A stretch of DNA of 64,000 nt, taken from Verrucomicrobiales bacterium (GTDB lineage Bacteria; Verrucomicrobiota; Verrucomicrobiia; Limisphaerales; UBA11320). The notes under the pieces were generated by a model. It searched no databases and was not told where the DNA came from. It saw only the letters and a list, made by a program, of their open reading frames with translations. Location of the stretch: assembly GCA_016793885.1 (NCBI GenBank), contig JAEUHE010000025.1, positions 1 to 64,000 on the forward strand. The letters run 5' to 3'. Positions 17,126 through 26,302 of the stretch are shown here, in pieces (position 1 is the stretch's first letter; each line of letters opens with the position of its first letter). The position numbers and the translations under genes are program-made.

Positions 17126-18037
17126 ATGGACCTACGCCAATTGCGCTATTTCCAAGCCGTCGCGGAGGAGTTGAGCTTCTCCAAAGCCGCCGTGCGACTC
17201 CGAATCGCCCAACCCGCCCTCAGCCGCGCGGTTCAGGAACTGGAGCGAGAACTGGGTGCCGCCTTGATGAATCGTACCCGCCGAACCGTGCGCCTGACAC
17301 CCGCCGGTGCGGTGCTGTTGGAGGAGGCAGCGCTTCTGTTCGACCGGTTTGCGGAATCGATCCGAAGGGTAAAACGTACGATGTCCGGGGAAGAAGGGGA
17401 GCTTCGTTTGGGCTATATCGGGCCGCCCACTCAGACGTTCCTCGGCAGGATCTTGGCGGACTATCGTCAGGGACATCCGAACGTCTCGGTGCATTTGGAG
17501 GAGCGCACTCCGGAACGGGTCTGGGAAATGGTCGCAAAAGGGCGGCTCTCGGTCGGCCTTACCCGCCCCGTGCTGGCCCACGAGTCCCTCGGGCTGCCTT
17601 CGATCCTGCTTCGTAAGGAACGATTTTGTGCCGCAGTTCCACCGACCCACGCCTGGGCTCGGAAGGAAAGTCTGCCGTGGAGCCGGCTGGCCGCGGAGCC
17701 TGTGGTGTTGCTGGCGCGACGGGAAGGCGTCGGGTCTCACGACACCATCATGGCCGCTTGCCGAACCGCTGGGTTCGTCCCCCGGGTGGCTCACACCCCC
17801 AGTCTGATCGGAACAGTGCTCCGCTATGTGGAGGCAGGCATAGGAACTGGCATCGTTCCGGAGGGAGTGATCGCGGATCCGCCCGATTCCGAGGTCAAGT
17901 TGATCCCCCTCAAACCCATCCAGATCGCACCGCTGATCATGGTCTGGAACAAAACAGCAGAAGACCCTCCTGTGCTCGCGTTCATCGAGCTCATGCGGAA
18001 CTGGCTGGCAGCCGACCGACTGTTTCCGTTGCCTTAG
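17126..18037 (+). CDS. LysR-family transcriptional regulator
   Basis: 303 residues. The N-terminal winged helix-turn-helix is MDLRQLRYFQAVAEELSFSK...RIAQPALSRAVQELERELG...RTRRTVRLTPAG. Residues 90-300 form the two-lobed effector domain (LRLGYIGPPT, VGLTRPVL, GIGTGIVPEG). The family usually regulates the divergent gene, here the antiporter; the 113-base intergenic region has ATAGC (17054) and GCTAT (17090) half-sites, but their spacing is too wide to be a clear T-N11-A box. Its stop codon overlaps that of the convergent glycosyltransferase gene by 4 bases. Confidence 0.92.
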   Translation: MDLRQLRYFQAVAEELSFSKAAVRLRIAQPALSRAVQELERELGAALMNRTRRTVRLTPAGAVLLEEAALLFDRFAESIRRVKRTMSGEEGELRLGYIGPPTQTFLGRILADYRQGHPNVSVHLEERTPERVWEMVAKGRLSVGLTRPVLAHESLGLPSILLRKERFCAAVPPTHAWARKESLPWSRLAAEPVVLLARREGVGSHDTIMAACRTAGFVPRVAHTPSLIGTVLRYVEAGIGTGIVPEGVIADPPDSEVKLIPLKPIQIAPLIMVWNKTAEDPPVLAFIELMRNWLAADRLFPLP

Positions 18038-21000
18038 GCAACCTGCGCATCCGCAAGCACGGCCCTCAAAGCGGCGGCGGCGCTGGGCAGCACCGTTTCC
18101 AAACGAGGCAAGGAATCTCCTATTCGCCGAACGACCGATTCCGAACCGCTTCCTACCAGTCGACGGAACCAGCCGCAAAACTCCTGGCTCACCATCGGCT
18201 CCTGTTCGGGTGACAACGACTCAACCGGTTGACCGGCGAGCACCTGACACAGGATCAACGCGGCTCGATGGGAGATCCTGGTTCGATCCTCGAACCGGGC
18301 CCAAAGCTCCAAGGACTGTTCAAGCTCGCCCATTCGCAGCAACACTTCCGCACGGGCGATGCCGAGCACTGGATCGCGAGGAAAATGCTTCACAGCCTCC
18401 GCGGTCCAATCGGCCGCAAACTCGCCGAATTCAGGCTTTCGCAACGCGATGTCCGCACCCAGCCGCCAAGCGGCCAGCTCCCCTGGTTTAACCGTGATGA
18501 CGTGATGTAATTGTTCCAGCGCCGGAACCCATCGATCGGCTTGTTCTAAAAACCTCGCGTAATCCAGCCGCACTTTCGCCGAAGCGGGATCCTCCTCCAA
18601 CGCCAGTCGATACTCCTTGTCCGCCTCCAAGGGCAATCCCAATTGAATAGAGGACAACGCCAGCATATGACGCGGCGCCACGGAATGAATGTCCGGCAGG
18701 ATGGGAGAAAGAGCTGGTTGATTTCGTTTCGCCACACAGCTCTTGAGGTGTTTCGCTGCCTCGTCAAACTTTCGCTGCAGGTAGAATCCCACCCCAAAGA
18801 GCATGTGAAGCGAGGCCGTGGGACCGGAGGCTTTGACGGCAGCCGAGGCGGAAAGCTCGATCAAGGACTGAAATCGCTGGGCGCTGACCAGATGGGAGGC
18901 CATCAAGGTGAGCAAACGCTCGCGCAACTCCGGTGGAACCTTGGCGGCAGGCTGCTGATTCATGGCGGCGAATGCACGGCCATACTCTTCAAGCCCTGCG
19001 TCGAGCTGGCCCGAGCGAACCAACTCCAGCCCGTAGCTCATTCGCAGGCTGATATCATGAGGCTGCTCTTCGATCGCGACGGACAGCAGCTTGAGATTGC
19101 GAGCCACCTTGGATCGCTCCTTGACCACCTGGTCCGAGTAGCCGTGATGGCGGAGCTGGGCGTTCCCGATGCGATTCTCCATCCCCCACTCTTCGATGGG
19201 ACGCTCCAAGCTTCCGAAAGCGTGCTCATGAATCCGGCCCGTGAAGCAGGCACCAGGAATGTTTCTGAACAACCGGGGCACGTAATGGTACCCCTCCTTC
19301 TCCTTGCCGACATCGGCCAAAGGAAGCCGCCAGGCCAGGACTGCGTCCGTGCGCATGAGTTGCCGAAGGCGTTCCTCGGAGTCGGGCAGCAGTTCCTCAT
19401 CGGCATCCAGGACCAAAACCCAGTCGCCTCGAACAAACTCCAGGGCAGCGTTGCGGGCCACGCTGAAATCGTTGGACCATTCAAAAGCATGGACCTCAGC
19501 TCCGGCAGCCTCCGCCAGTTCAACCGTCCGGTCGGTGGAGCCCGTGTCAACCACCACAATCTGATCCGCGACTCGACGAACCGATTTTAAACAGGACTCG
19601 ATGAACCGCTCTTCGTTCTTCACGATCAGGCAGACCGAGAGACGAGGCGCGGCGTTGCCCAAACCCTTCGCCCATTCGGGAATCCCCAGGTGAACCTGGG
19701 TCGCAGAGGTGGCCCCCACTCCATTGGGCAAACTTTTGGCGGATTTCCATTTCGGAACGCGTTTTCGTAAACGTGACACGCACTCCTTGTAGAGTCGCTC
19801 ATCGCCCACGGCCTTCGCGATCTGACACTGGAGCAGCCAGGCTTCCGGATGAAAGGGACGCAACCGCAGCGCATCCCAGGTGGCATCCCAGGCTTCGGCG
19901 AAGCGTCGGCTCTCGAACGCGGAGCGAGCCGAAGCAATGTCTCCCAGGCGGGAGACCGCTGCCGGACCGGAACTACTCGACCGCTCGGCGAAACGCTGGA
20001 ATGCCAACTCAACCACCTCGACCAAAGGCATCAGCCAAGCCCGGCCCTCATCATCCGAAGTCGAGCGTGGACCCGTTTCGGCCAAAGCCACCGCGGAGGC
20101 CTCCACCTGGACCTCGAGATCATCGGACGCTTGAGCGGAAAGTTGCTCAGCCACCCGGCGGGCCAGGTCTGGTTGGTTCTGACGACGACAAATCTCAGCC
20201 AGCATGCGAAGCGTACCACGGTCACGCGGATCCAGCCGAACAAGGGTCTCCAGACCGCGACGCGCGCGGACCCAGTCTCCCGACTCGAGCGCAATTCGAA
20301 CGCAGCTTAGTTGGAGGGACAAGTCCTTGCCCGCGCTGGCGATCGCCACTTCCAAGCATTCGAGTGCCGAGGAGATCTCGCCCTGTGCGGAGCGGATCTC
20401 TGCCAGGAGACCCAACCAAGGCCGAAGCGCGGGTGACCCTACCGGCACGGCTCGGGGGTGAACTGGAGCCGAGGCGATGGGGACGGGGCTACGCTGCCCC
20501 ACATAGTCGGGCTCAAGCCCGGAGCGAATCCACTCGAGCACCTGGGCCACTCGACGCTCGGTAGTATGATTGCATCGGACAGTTTCCTGAGCCTGGCGCA
20601 CGCGGCGTTCTCCCAGTGCGGGCTCGGCAAGAAGCTGCTCCACTTCGGCGGCCAGGGCCTGCGCGTCGTTTTTCTCGAAAAAGGCGATCTCCTCACCGCG
20701 TCTAAAAAGTCCCAGGGCTCGTGGACGCTGTGCCATCTCCCAAGAAACGACCGGTCGGCCGGCGGCCATGGCCTCAAAGACACGCCCCGCAAAGCTGTTC
20801 ACATAGGACGGAAGATTGACGACCGGACCGCCAGCCTGGAGCCCTCGCAACCAGAGATCGAAGCACGCCGTTCGAATACGACGCCATGCTTCGAGCTGAA
20901 CGAGCAAGCTCTCCGGATCAATGGCTTGCCCCGAGCAGAGCAGCGAATCGAAGGTGCGGAACAACTCATCGAACCATCCAGGGTATCGAGTCGAGTCCTC

Positions 21001-23910
21001 ACCCGGCTGCAGCTGGAAGGTGAGCAATCGCCGGAGAGCGGGTAAATGCAAGAGCTCGCTTCGATTGCCGTAAATAGCACCGGAGAAAAGGGCTCGGCGA
21101 TCGGGGCTCGGACCGGGAGGCGGCAAGATGGATCGTCCGGGAACTGTCTGAGGCCACCAAATCGCGGCGACCGTCCGCTTCTGGTTCAACTCCTCGGCGT
21201 CGATTTCATCGATGCACAACGCATGGGTGACATGGCTCAGACGCTCTAGAACCCGTGCATGTCGGTCACGCAGTTGGGGGGCCTGCACATACACCTCAGG
21301 ATCGTAGCGCAAGGATTCCATCACCAAGCCTACCCGTATGGGAGCCAGGCCGGAAATCCACTGCCAGAATTCCTCATCCCACTCGCTGTGCACAAGCTCC
21401 ACCCAAACCTGATCGAAATGCTGCCCGGCGCAGAGACGTCGAACCTGCTTTTGCCAAGCAAGTCGCGCGGTCTCCGAAAACCCGCACACGCTGGGAATGG
21501 TGACCCACTCCACATCGTTGGCGCGAAACCCCTCCTCCATCCCCAACCCGGCAGGATACGCCAAACGCTTGGCATACTGCCATTGAGCGAACTCCAGACA
21601 AAGGTAGAGGATTCGAGGCTTGCGGATCTGGGGAGAGCCTGGATTGACCACGGGCTGGGACTCCGCCTCCGCGGCAGGGGGAATAACCAGCTCGCCATCA
21701 GACAAAGAAGTTGGCGAAGCCGCACGCAACGGCAACGTTTCCCAATCCTCCCTTCCCACCGTGGTTTGGTGCATCCTTCCTTCGGTCAACTGCGCATACT
21801 CCAACAGGTCAGCCAACCGGCGATGCTGAAATCCGCGCGCTTCCATCTGGCGCAACAGCAGCGTCGCCTGCGCGTGCAGCATGGAGTGCTCCGCGAGGTC
21901 GGCGAGCAAGACCACCGCCTGCTGGTCAGCTGCAGGCTCATTCACTTCCAGAAGCAGGCGTGCTTTGAGCAGTCGATAAAGAGGGAACTCCGCATCCTGG
22001 GCGATCGCCTGCTGCACGTACTCCAGCCGAAGACTCTTCGGAGCATCCGGGCCTGCGAATCCAGGACCGACTGCTTGGCGTAGATCCGCCTCCGAATAAC
22101 AGGCGAGGTAATAGGCGATCGAGCCCAGGATCAACTGACTGAGATCCGCGCTCGCGTCCTCCCTGCGCTGAAGGGCCAAAGTGCATCGATCGAAATAGGA
22201 ACGATAGTTGAAGAACTGACCAAAGAAGTCCCAAGGAAAAACATCCTCATCGCACGACACCTCCCAGTTTCCCTGGGAACCCGTCAGGGTCTGGATTGCC
22301 GTCATGAGGGCCTGGGAGACCTCCTCGGGCTCGCCGAAGTGCAATGCGGCTCGGATAAAATTAAACCGCAGCACCAAAGATCTCGGAAAACGGCGCATGC
22401 CCAAGCGATAGAGGTCCAAAGCGCTGGAGAGGACCTCACGATCGATCTTGGATCGAGCGTTGTAGTTCTTATGGTAGACTTGTGCCGCTGGAAAATAGGC
22501 GGCGGTGGCAAACTCCAATACCAACTCGCGGGCCATGTTGATGACGCACGCGGCCGAAGCCTGTTGAGTCAGATCGGAAGCCCATTCCTTCAAGCTGCGC
22601 TGCCGGACCGCTAGATTCACAGCGGGTCTCCACGACCAGCCTTTGCAAAGAATGCTGCGCTTCTGACGAAGCAACCGAGGATCCACCTCCACCCGCGCCG
22701 CGCGGGGCTTGGCTGCCAGAAAGGTCAGGAATCGAAAATACTGGGAAGCCGCCCGGGTCGAAGTGAACTCCTGGCGAACTACACCAGCCCCGATCAGAGC
22801 CCGTTCGCGAAACAGCTCCCATTCCCGAGTGATCCTCTGGAGGGCGTCGGGCAGATCCCCTTTCTCGAGCGAATAGGAGACCACCCCCTCATTCTCGCCG
22901 AGATAGGCCCTAAGAATGCTTTCCTCCTGCACCGCGATCGCCGCTCCCATCGCCAAGGATTCCATCCCACGAGTCGGCATGCCCCCGGGATGCCGGATGT
23001 ACGTGAACGCAGCCCGGGTGCAACCCAGGATGTTCAGGTAATCGGCCATGGGAAGAAAACCTTCGAGGAACTTCACCTTCAGATCCCGGTTGCGGAGGAC
23101 CTGATGAATCAATCGAGCCTTGTCGGGATGGTAGGGATGCTGGGTTGTTCCTGAGATGAACACATCCAGGGCTCGAAGGCCATCCGGCACCGCCGGCAGT
23201 TTGAGAGCCAGACCAAAGGCCTTGGGAAAGACCGAGACCGGACCTTGACGAAGCTGGGACACATCACGCCACTCCGTCTGGTCGGTAGTGAGCACCTCAT
23301 CAAACACCCCTAACCAAGGGTGAACCGCCTGGATATGAAGATCGTAGTCGGCGGTGTGGCCGAAGACGGGGCAGGGTAGAGTCTGCAGGTTTGGCGGCAG
23401 CAAATGCCATTCGAGCATTTTTGCGACGTAGAAATCGGGCGGCCGCTTCTCATCGAAACACCGCCGAATATCAGCATAGGGCCGAATGGGCTGGTCGTTG
23501 ACATCGAACCCATAGTTCACGATCTCGAATCGCTGGTCCTCGCGAATGGAGGTGATGAAATCCCACTGGCTTCCCCGGTCACATTGGGAGAGCACTTGGA
23601 TCTTGGGTTTGCGCAACAACGCCAAGAGTTTTCGAGCGTGCTCCGTAGTGAGCCCGGCTAGGGCTTTCACCGCGACTGCATCGTTTCCATCGATCCAGTG
23701 AGTGACCCCCTCGTAGAACCTGGCCTCTGGCACAGAGAACCGAGCCAAGCCCTCCAAGGCTGGCTTGGCTAGCCCAATCAGCCCTTTGGCAGCATGGGTA
23801 CGCCAGTCACCCTCGTGACCGAAGAGCGCGGCAGAGGCGTAGTCGCCGCGGTCAAAGGCATGTTCTACAGCGCCCCCTGGGGCGTGCTCAATCGGCAGTG
23901 CGTCCGTCAT
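18034..23910 (-). CDS. Giant multi-domain glycosyltransferase/TPR protein
   Basis: 1958 residues with no signal peptide, so cytoplasmic. Module order: (1) residues about 100-400, a GT-B/CgeB-like domain (DYNLHI-type core, GGMPTRGMESLAMGAAI at 309); (2) helical, TPR-like 420-740; (3) residues about 764-1135, a second CgeB-like domain (RILYLCLEFAQWQ, GNRSELLHLPALRRLL, FAGRVFEAMAAGRPVVSWEM); (4) TPRs about 1160-1390; (5) residues about 1424-1600, a GT-A family 2 domain (LSVCLIVKNEERFIESCLKS, VVDTGSTDRT, DxD as LDADEE); (6) TPRs to the C-terminus. All three catalytic modules keep recognisable nucleotide-sugar elements. Such chains are known for surface polysaccharide or glycoprotein synthesis, but I do not know this exact arrangement. 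The substrate is unknown. No polysaccharide export genes lie nearby. Confidence 0.85.
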   Translation of the reverse strand: MTDALPIEHAPGGAVEHAFDRGDYASAALFGHEGDWRTHAAKGLIGLAKPALEGLARFSVPEARFYEGVTHWIDGNDAVAVKALAGLTTEHARKLLALLRKPKIQVLSQCDRGSQWDFITSIREDQRFEIVNYGFDVNDQPIRPYADIRRCFDEKRPPDFYVAKMLEWHLLPPNLQTLPCPVFGHTADYDLHIQAVHPWLGVFDEVLTTDQTEWRDVSQLRQGPVSVFPKAFGLALKLPAVPDGLRALDVFISGTTQHPYHPDKARLIHQVLRNRDLKVKFLEGFLPMADYLNILGCTRAAFTYIRHPGGMPTRGMESLAMGAAIAVQEESILRAYLGENEGVVSYSLEKGDLPDALQRITREWELFRERALIGAGVVRQEFTSTRAASQYFRFLTFLAAKPRAARVEVDPRLLRQKRSILCKGWSWRPAVNLAVRQRSLKEWASDLTQQASAACVINMARELVLEFATAAYFPAAQVYHKNYNARSKIDREVLSSALDLYRLGMRRFPRSLVLRFNFIRAALHFGEPEEVSQALMTAIQTLTGSQGNWEVSCDEDVFPWDFFGQFFNYRSYFDRCTLALQRREDASADLSQLILGSIAYYLACYSEADLRQAVGPGFAGPDAPKSLRLEYVQQAIAQDAEFPLYRLLKARLLLEVNEPAADQQAVVLLADLAEHSMLHAQATLLLRQMEARGFQHRRLADLLEYAQLTEGRMHQTTVGREDWETLPLRAASPTSLSDGELVIPPAAEAESQPVVNPGSPQIRKPRILYLCLEFAQWQYAKRLAYPAGLGMEEGFRANDVEWVTIPSVCGFSETARLAWQKQVRRLCAGQHFDQVWVELVHSEWDEEFWQWISGLAPIRVGLVMESLRYDPEVYVQAPQLRDRHARVLERLSHVTHALCIDEIDAEELNQKRTVAAIWWPQTVPGRSILPPPGPSPDRRALFSGAIYGNRSELLHLPALRRLLTFQLQPGEDSTRYPGWFDELFRTFDSLLCSGQAIDPESLLVQLEAWRRIRTACFDLWLRGLQAGGPVVNLPSYVNSFAGRVFEAMAAGRPVVSWEMAQRPRALGLFRRGEEIAFFEKNDAQALAAEVEQLLAEPALGERRVRQAQETVRCNHTTERRVAQVLEWIRSGLEPDYVGQRSPVPIASAPVHPRAVPVGSPALRPWLGLLAEIRSAQGEISSALECLEVAIASAGKDLSLQLSCVRIALESGDWVRARRGLETLVRLDPRDRGTLRMLAEICRRQNQPDLARRVAEQLSAQASDDLEVQVEASAVALAETGPRSTSDDEGRAWLMPLVEVVELAFQRFAERSSSSGPAAVSRLGDIASARSAFESRRFAEAWDATWDALRLRPFHPEAWLLQCQIAKAVGDERLYKECVSRLRKRVPKWKSAKSLPNGVGATSATQVHLGIPEWAKGLGNAAPRLSVCLIVKNEERFIESCLKSVRRVADQIVVVDTGSTDRTVELAEAAGAEVHAFEWSNDFSVARNAALEFVRGDWVLVLDADEELLPDSEERLRQLMRTDAVLAWRLPLADVGKEKEGYHYVPRLFRNIPGACFTGRIHEHAFGSLERPIEEWGMENRIGNAQLRHHGYSDQVVKERSKVARNLKLLSVAIEEQPHDISLRMSYGLELVRSGQLDAGLEEYGRAFAAMNQQPAAKVPPELRERLLTLMASHLVSAQRFQSLIELSASAAVKASGPTASLHMLFGVGFYLQRKFDEAAKHLKSCVAKRNQPALSPILPDIHSVAPRHMLALSSIQLGLPLEADKEYRLALEEDPASAKVRLDYARFLEQADRWVPALEQLHHVITVKPGELAAWRLGADIALRKPEFGEFAADWTAEAVKHFPRDPVLGIARAEVLLRMGELEQSLELWARFEDRTRISHRAALILCQVLAGQPVESLSPEQEPMVSQEFCGWFRRLVGSGSESVVRRIGDSLPRLETVLPSAAAALRAVLADAQVA

Positions 23911-24653: not shown

Positions 24654-24685
24654 CAAAAAAAGGGCTGGCCTTTCGGCCAGCCCTT
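24654..24685 (-). terminator. Rho-independent terminator of the OmcB-like gene
   Basis: Read on the minus strand: an 11-bp stem, AAGGGCTGGCC with GGCCAGCCCTT, a GAAA tetraloop, then a run of seven or more T. It lies 31 bases past the stop codon. Confidence 0.93.
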
Positions 24686-24715: not shown

Positions 24716-26302
24716 TTAGTACTGATGGGTGGATTCGGTCTCTTCGACCGAGCGATCGGTCTGATCGCTGGTGAGGACGGTGTCGAAACGCACATCGCCA
24801 GCCTTGAGGGCTTTAACGGTGACCTTCCAGGAAGCCTTCGCTTTCGGGGCGATCGAACCGACGATTTCATAAACGATCGTCTTGCCGCTGGCACTCACCG
24901 CCGAGGTGCCCGTGCCAGAGACGAACTCTTGCGAGTCTTCCAGCTTGCTGACGACCTTGACGTTGGTCAGGGGAGCGGTACCCTGGTTGGTCACGATAAC
25001 CTCGTAAACTTCGTTGGCACCCACTTCGATCGGATCGTTCGCATCAACAACTTCCAACAGCACAGCGCCGATACCACGGTAAACCGTCTGGCAGCTGGTG
25101 GTGGCCGGAGCGGCGCAACCACAGGTAGCGCTGGCGCTCAGCGAGAACTGGCCGGCAGTCGCAGAAACGACCGTGGCGCAGACTTCCTTGGACTCGCCAG
25201 CACCGAGGGTACCAACGCGCCAGGTGACTTTGCCGTTGGCGAAGGTGCCGCCACCGGTGGTGCTCTGGACCGTCAGACCCGCAGGAACAGAAGCTTCGAT
25301 CACAGCGTCGCCACAAGCAGCGTCACCCGTGTTGGAGATCTTGAAGCAGAAGTCACCCGGACGGCCGAGATAACGTTCAGCCGGAGCGGTGCAGGTAAGC
25401 TGGATGACAGCTTGGCGCACCATCGTGCTGGCGCTGGCCTGAGCGCTGACGCCTTCCTTCGAGGTCGCCTTTGCCGTGTTGTCAAACTTGCCCGTGCGGC
25501 CAGCCTTCAAAGCCACCGGGATATCCTTGGATTCGCCCGGAGCCAAACGACCCACAGGGACGCTAACCGAAGTGCGTCCGTCAGCTGTGGTCAGACCGGA
25601 CGGAAGTTCGTCGGTAACCGTCACATCATTCAGCGTGCTGCTGCCCGAGTTGCGCACCGTCAAGGTCATGTTGATCGGGTCACAAACCGTCGCTTCCGGA
25701 GTCAGCTTCTTCACGAGCTCCAGACCGGGCTTCAGAATCTTGATGGGTTCGCACAGGATCGGGCTGTAGGTGGCCCAACCGCAGGTCGTAATCGTGCCTT
25801 CTTCGCTGGCCGAACCAGTGACGGTGATCACCTTCGTCTGGTTGGGTTCCAAGGTATCAAGGCTCCAAGTGGCCAAACCACCATTCACGTTCGACGGCTT
25901 CGGATCCGCCGAGCTGGCGCTGAAATTGGAGGTGACGCGATCCGTCACCATGACCTGGTGCAGCGCGTAGGGGGTCAGATTCTTGACTTCATAACGGTAG
26001 GTGAAAGGAACACCCACCATGGCCTCAGCCGGAACCACCTTCTCCAAAAGCAGGCCGCTGCCGTCGAGCTTGCCTGAAGGAAACGCCATGGAACCCTTGA
26101 TGAACTTGCTCCCGTCAGCCTCATAGGTGCTGTAGGACGGTCCATACCCGTCGGTGCGGGCAGGAGCTGCCTTCGCCGGAGTCGGGGCGGCACCGTGAGA
26201 ATGATTGGCTTGTTGTTGCTGCTGGGCACATCCCGCGAGCAGCAGCGCTGCCATCAAGCTGGCTGCGATGGACTGGAGACCATGATGTTTGGTTCGTTTC
26301 AT
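24716..26302 (-). CDS. OmcB-like cysteine-containing envelope lipoprotein with DUF11 repeats
   Basis: 528 residues. MKRTKHHGLQSIAASLMAALLLAGC is a lipoprotein signal (lipobox LLAGC), followed by a Gln/Ala/Pro linker. Five or so DUF11/Ig-like repeats follow (e.g. FTYRYEVKNLTPYALHQV, CDPINMTLTVRNSGSSTL, DFCFKISNTGDAACGDAV, VYEVIVTNQGTAPLTNV). The final segment ends KVTVKALKAGDVRF...EETESTHQY, which I recognise as matching the end of chlamydial OmcB. About eleven cysteines are present apart from the lipid-bearing one, including CGWATYSPILCEP and CGCAAPATTSC, far fewer than in OmcB. Likely a structural periplasmic/outer-membrane protein. ATG 26302 is used; the open frame to 26383 is an AT-rich leader. 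A strong terminator follows. Confidence 0.87.
   Translation of the reverse strand: MKRTKHHGLQSIAASLMAALLLAGCAQQQQQANHSHGAAPTPAKAAPARTDGYGPSYSTYEADGSKFIKGSMAFPSGKLDGSGLLLEKVVPAEAMVGVPFTYRYEVKNLTPYALHQVMVTDRVTSNFSASSADPKPSNVNGGLATWSLDTLEPNQTKVITVTGSASEEGTITTCGWATYSPILCEPIKILKPGLELVKKLTPEATVCDPINMTLTVRNSGSSTLNDVTVTDELPSGLTTADGRTSVSVPVGRLAPGESKDIPVALKAGRTGKFDNTAKATSKEGVSAQASASTMVRQAVIQLTCTAPAERYLGRPGDFCFKISNTGDAACGDAVIEASVPAGLTVQSTTGGGTFANGKVTWRVGTLGAGESKEVCATVVSATAGQFSLSASATCGCAAPATTSCQTVYRGIGAVLLEVVDANDPIEVGANEVYEVIVTNQGTAPLTNVKVVSKLEDSQEFVSGTGTSAVSASGKTIVYEIVGSIAPKAKASWKVTVKALKAGDVRFDTVLTSDQTDRSVEETESTHQY

Follow-up and report, generated by a model that had tools for sequence, protein, structure and literature searches.

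Within a 64,000-nt window from a Verrucomicrobiales bacterium (i.e. the whole stretch of DNA analysed here; the assembly containing it comprises 8.7 Mb in 274 contigs), the minus-strand gene at 26302..24716 encodes a 528-aa protein, P0001, that is probably related to the chlamydial envelope protein OmcB. P0001 is real and well conserved, and is probably an abundant lipoprotein of the envelope; its kind is already known. We favor, at a probability of roughly 60%, that it represents a lipid-tethered, internally disulfide-bonded rod of Ig-like domains that is highly expressed, has a structural role in the envelope and descends from the same stock that gave rise to OmcB.

The gene (528 codons plus stop; 24716..26302) was assigned from its open reading frame and profile matches as an OmcB-like four-repeat DUF11 lipoprotein gene. 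It starts with an ATG; an upstream TTG would yield a product of 555 aa, and the ATG at 26302 appears as the preferred start, as the predicted signal peptide then lies N-terminally. This signal peptide (26228..26302; minus strand, as for all features below) ends in the lipobox LAGC (LLLAGC25 in its longer form, located by pattern), with the putatively lipidated Cys25 at 26228–26230 and alanine as the +2 residue. Among relatives, 46 of 61 carry a cysteine in the lipobox column, and by its signal peptide and lipobox P0001 classifies as a predicted bacterial lipoprotein. A mostly disordered Gln/Ala/Pro-rich linker (aa 26–55; 26138..26227) leads to four DUF11 domains. Domain 1 (aa 56–190; 25733..26137) contains the C174–C184 pair, domain 2 (aa 191–296; 25415..25732) a VCDPI motif with C207, and domain 3 (aa 297–410; 25073..25414) the cysteines C304, C319, C330, C375, C394, C396 and C404. 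Domain 4 (aa 411–528; 24719..25072) is devoid of cysteines and harbors the motif DxxDPIxVG...VTNQG as well as the C-terminal signature GDxR...ETExTxxY. Just past the stop codon lies a strong intrinsic terminator (24660..24685; z −3.8). The initial annotation had read a lipobox, about eleven cysteines and two OmcB-like segments from this DNA. All were recovered in the translation: the lipobox with Cys25, exactly 11 cysteines (the lipobox residue included), the block VVDANDPIEVGANEVYEVIVTNQG at aa 418–441, and AGDVRF...EETESTHQY at the C-terminal end.

A Pfam search assigned four stretches of P0001 to DUF11 (PF01345; E 4.6e-39, 133.7 bits versus a cut-off of 24.6), and all four repeats surpassed the DUF11 cut-off when scanned singly. 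The AlphaFold model, with a pLDDT of 90.5, is all-beta and predicts four Ig-like DUF11 domains arranged as a rod; the signal peptide and linker remain unstructured in it (pLDDT <50 for aa 1–49). The closest folds in structure comparison were strings of Ig-like domains, e.g. integrin legs, antigen I/II C123 (Z 14.7) and the Ig domains of PrgB. Integrin alpha legs reached Z scores of up to 18 with a large rmsd, probably reflecting hinges between domains, and EbpB fitted domain 4 closely (Z 13.1; 2.3 Å over 114 residues). An Ig fold in common says nothing on function. P0001 might also have an adhesin or polysaccharide-binding role.

A profile built from five relatives of P0001 (A1) mostly retrieved proteins of 480–620 aa that aligned through their final residue. 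Matches at E < 1e-40 occurred in ~30 of 97 near genomes and in ~75 of 294 Planctomycetota genomes, and matches at E < 1e-30 in ~19 of 289 genomes of a wider sample of Verrucomicrobiota, the phylum of the window; close relatives of P0001 were labelled Verrucomicrobia. A full-length match to the last residue, combined with the signature DxxDP...TNQG and ETExTxxY, defines what we refer to here as the PVC OmcB-like four-repeat family (64 members, alignment A2), and P0001 possesses each of these features. Run on 199 control genomes from the phylum that includes a Lachnospiraceae locus, the family profile produced partial matches only (≤72 bits), none of which went beyond position 394 of the 520 model positions. 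As these matches never extend into the C-terminal repeat, this repeat marks the family, which is coherent, set apart from generic DUF11 proteins and populated by members from Verrucomicrobiota and Planctomycetota. D420, D423, P424, N439 and T525 are present in all 64 members, E523 in 63 and R505 in 59, while residue 528 is aromatic throughout (Tyr in 60, Phe in four). The extreme C-terminus (24719–24799; GDxR ... ETExTxxY) is thereby one of the best-conserved stretches in these proteins, and both segments singled out at the outset belong to its best-kept regions, a degree of conservation exceeding chance. A protein ~78% identical to P0001 is encoded on a public MAG contig whose title reads Akkermansia muciniphila (L011/L110); the title is probably wrong, as a match occurs at the same place on a contig of G291, which is listed under the window's genus.

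A quick tree of 84 proteins displayed two deep clades, each containing Verrucomicrobiota and Planctomycetota. This mixing, together with the patchy presence of the family, could point to horizontal transfer, i.e. a scaffold that spread among PVC phyla, to or from Chlamydiae, after these had split. However, group labels required merely five changes on the tree compared to 38 in shuffles, so that transfer between phyla looks rare and this scenario decidedly unlikely. The tree rather fits an old duplication with little between-phylum transfer. Many Planctomycetota genomes, and some of Verrucomicrobiota, carry the family gene as head-to-tail tandem pairs (L133–L135, L137–L140, L144–L146). The source genome itself encodes one paralogue (C86; L124, L010:1015-2511) of 498 aa, 44% identical over aa 193–528, which has the cysteines at 207, 304, 319, 375, 396 and 404 in common with P0001, lacks a lipobox and diverges in its N-terminal domain.

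Is the resemblance to OmcB more than a common DUF11 fold and a similar C-terminal string, as would be expected of a generic DUF11 adhesin or spacer? On P0001, Pfam's profile for chlamydial OmcB-type proteins, Chlam_OMP6 (PF03504), scored 33.9 bits (E 4e-8), 0.2 bits short of its curated cut-off of 34.1 and far below the DUF11 score; among the single repeats it weakly matched repeats 3 and 1, the best match being to domain 3. The profile also matched generic DUF11 proteins, namely five in a set of 18 long ones; the set included three that had been selected with Chlam_OMP6 itself. As some generic proteins match too, we rejected a PF03504 match as proof of OmcB identity. Among the 64 family members, 44 were matched at E < 0.01 (best, 1.5e-17). 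In a separate scan, most of the Chlam_OMP6 matches that were positionally comparable with those of the family profile in the Verrucomicrobiota sample fell on repeat 1. What argues against a generic protein is a sharply delimited family, matched over its full length and marked by a C-terminal signature of its own, that is missing from the control phylum; the generic DUF11/TIGR01451 repeat proteins encountered, similar to P0001 in their repeats, were mostly very long, contained multiple repeats and lacked this signature. In addition, the family profile recovered planctomycete proteins of 880–896 aa that have zero cysteines and were matched in their C-terminal half (L149, L150, L160). These fit a published OmcB homologue, a cysteine-free, 907-aa protein of Rhodopirellula baltica (CAD72259) that C. 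trachomatis OmcB matches at 3e-25, mainly in the C-terminal region (2006, PMC1403754). By its published description, CAD72259 is of the same type as the ~890-aa members, with similarity in the C-terminal region, and differs from P0001 in its greater length, its lack of cysteines and its N-terminal part. An OmcB orthologue cluster including members from other bacteria has likewise been described (2009, PMC2811131), so that, with a cysteine-free homologue known since 2006, the relationship is not new in outline.

Taken together, we regard the generic explanation as unlikely. The initial annotation had named best full-length matches to generic DUF11 proteins as the outcome that would speak against an OmcB connection; the best such matches instead came from a distinct PVC family. 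Because of this, and because the control phylum gave only partial matches, a kinship with OmcB specific beyond that of any DUF11 protein is likely, based indirectly on the Chlam_OMP6 profile and the published descriptions of homologues. Database searches were silent on OmcB itself: genome contigs searched with P0001 yielded four loci, none of them chlamydial, viral contigs searched with A1 no OmcB, plasmids weak DUF11 matches only, the PDB searched by sequence no OmcB, and text searches for OmcB strings nothing relevant.

In its layout, P0001 resembles chlamydial OmcB (the 60-kDa cysteine-rich outer membrane complex protein): the proteins are alike in length (528 vs. 547–560 aa), and both comprise a signal peptide, a variable N-terminal region and a conserved core of ~460–470 aa with OMP6/DUF11 repeats. 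In OmcB, the variable region (aa 41–79) is basic and carries a heparin-binding XBBXBX motif, and the conserved core extends from aa 96 on (PMC2229832). P0001 has a disordered linker ahead of its core and lacks such a motif (aa 26–80 contain no adjacent basic residues). P0001 further differs in its lipobox, its 8.7-Mb host genome and its cysteines, which number 11 as opposed to 24 (4.4%) in C. trachomatis OmcB (PMC2615015, PMC1403754) and are predicted to pair internally. Planctomycetes also possess cysteine-rich cell wall proteins with a YTV domain (cited in PMC8567305). As cysteine-containing PVC envelope proteins these are comparable to P0001; judged by name and description, their domain is a different one.

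The chlamydial OmcB ending, which we take to be AGDARG...DTENTHIY (GD.R ... [D/E]TE.TH.Y), fits the family signature and as such provides a lead, and the preceding cysteine-rich block presumably reads C-V-V-D-x-C-D-P-V-C. P0001 has no cysteine at these DxCDPVC sites, where it holds E417, N422 and E426. That cysteines had been replaced at these positions, the second half of the proposed OmcB link, was not borne out: none of the 64 relatives has a cysteine in columns 417, 422 or 426, and hence there is no trace of former cysteines outside Chlamydiae. If the chlamydial motif given above is correct, the corresponding chlamydial cysteines would be gains, and a gain of cross-linking cysteines in Chlamydiae is probably more economical than their loss or replacement elsewhere.

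The cysteines that P0001 does possess appear to be paired. Co-occurrence was observed for C174 and C184 in 56 of 58 members, for C207 and C396 in 44/44, for C319 and C375 in 14/14, for C304 and C404 in 15/21, and for C330 and C394 in 4/5; these numbers, from which the pairing was deduced, are inflated by common ancestry, and 304–404 was paired mainly by elimination. Parsimony reconstruction of cysteine gain and loss on a FastTree tree (125 branches) placed joint changes of 174–184 on three branches, of 207–396 on two of two, of 319–375 on three of three, and of 330–394 on two of three. By this reading, the five pairs use all ten non-lipid cysteines. In the model, C319 and C375 would lie in strands corresponding to Ig strands B and F, the sites of the classical Ig disulfide.

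Were P0001 a working OmcB analogue, its cysteines would join adjacent rods to one another, and to further envelope proteins, in a disulfide mesh like that of chlamydial elementary bodies. Eleven cysteines, a related architecture and an OMP6-type domain are compatible with such a function, as are the DsbA-type domains present in the source genome, which count equally for internal disulfides (VKOR, searched as an oxidant, was not found). However, as every one of the ten non-lipid cysteines belongs to one of five co-varying pairs, internal disulfides are predicted rather than a cross-linked mesh. Moreover, cysteines account for 2.1% of P0001, compared to the published 4.4%, relatives with anywhere between 0 and 14 cysteines (median, 9) keep the same architecture, and the zero-cysteine relatives show that the family does not have cross-linking as its shared function. 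Nor does a conserved cysteine-rich partner gene occur nearby among the ORFs of at least 90 aa in 42 neighbourhoods, although a gene like omcA (encoding a small cysteine-rich lipoprotein) might be shorter than this. We therefore consider a cross-linking OmcB analogue very unlikely.

In these same neighbourhoods, and for the same ORF sizes, we found no conserved operon and no widely kept partner gene, consistent with expectations for a stand-alone structural gene. In six relatives, a gene for a ~217-aa lipoprotein-like protein adjoins the family gene or lies close to it (e.g. L012:5419-6072, L011:3902-4558); in the window this gene is not adjacent, and it was rejected as a partner. As a separate observation, a minus-strand ORF of 1958 aa (18034-23910) looks as if glycosyltransferase and TPR-type segments had been fused. 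With respect to expression, 0.93 of the arginine codons in the P0001 gene are CGY, compared to 0.21–0.67 in 21 other genes of the window, and its ENC of 41.9 is low for its GC3. A promoter scan of the gene found none. The codon bias and the strong terminator suggest high expression of P0001.

The preferred reading, a structural rod akin to OmcB, thus combines computed features (ORF, lipobox, predicted fold, family, paired cysteines, codon bias and terminator) with an outer-membrane location, abundance, structural role and OmcB descent that we infer. As a lipoprotein, P0001 would probably reside in the outer membrane and serve the cell envelope structurally: the lipid on Cys25 and the flexible linker would tether the four-domain Ig-like rod, and up to five internal disulfides (174–184, 207–396, 319–375, 330–394 and 304–404) would stiffen it. 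Working without intermolecular cross-links, the rod might act as a spacer, a surface protein or a scaffold. The old Planctomycetota/Verrucomicrobiota family would then be the apparent stock of chlamydial OmcB, and the addition of further cysteines to such a rod in Chlamydiae could have produced a redox-switched mesh. That an ancestral PVC envelope scaffold of this type, lipid-anchored, with paired internal disulfides and common in Planctomycetota and Verrucomicrobiota, became OmcB through added unpaired cysteines is a tentative proposal, to which we assign slightly less than even odds.

How the disulfide-linked chlamydial envelope, which replaces a full peptidoglycan wall, originated is an old question. 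What is new here is a further member of a known family type, accompanied by a useful evolutionary reading of its cysteines. A non-chlamydial family of the same architecture, with cysteines in pairs and with cysteine-free members, would offer a concrete before-state for OmcB and a testable sequence of events: first the scaffold, then internal disulfides, and then, in Chlamydiae only, cross-linking cysteines.
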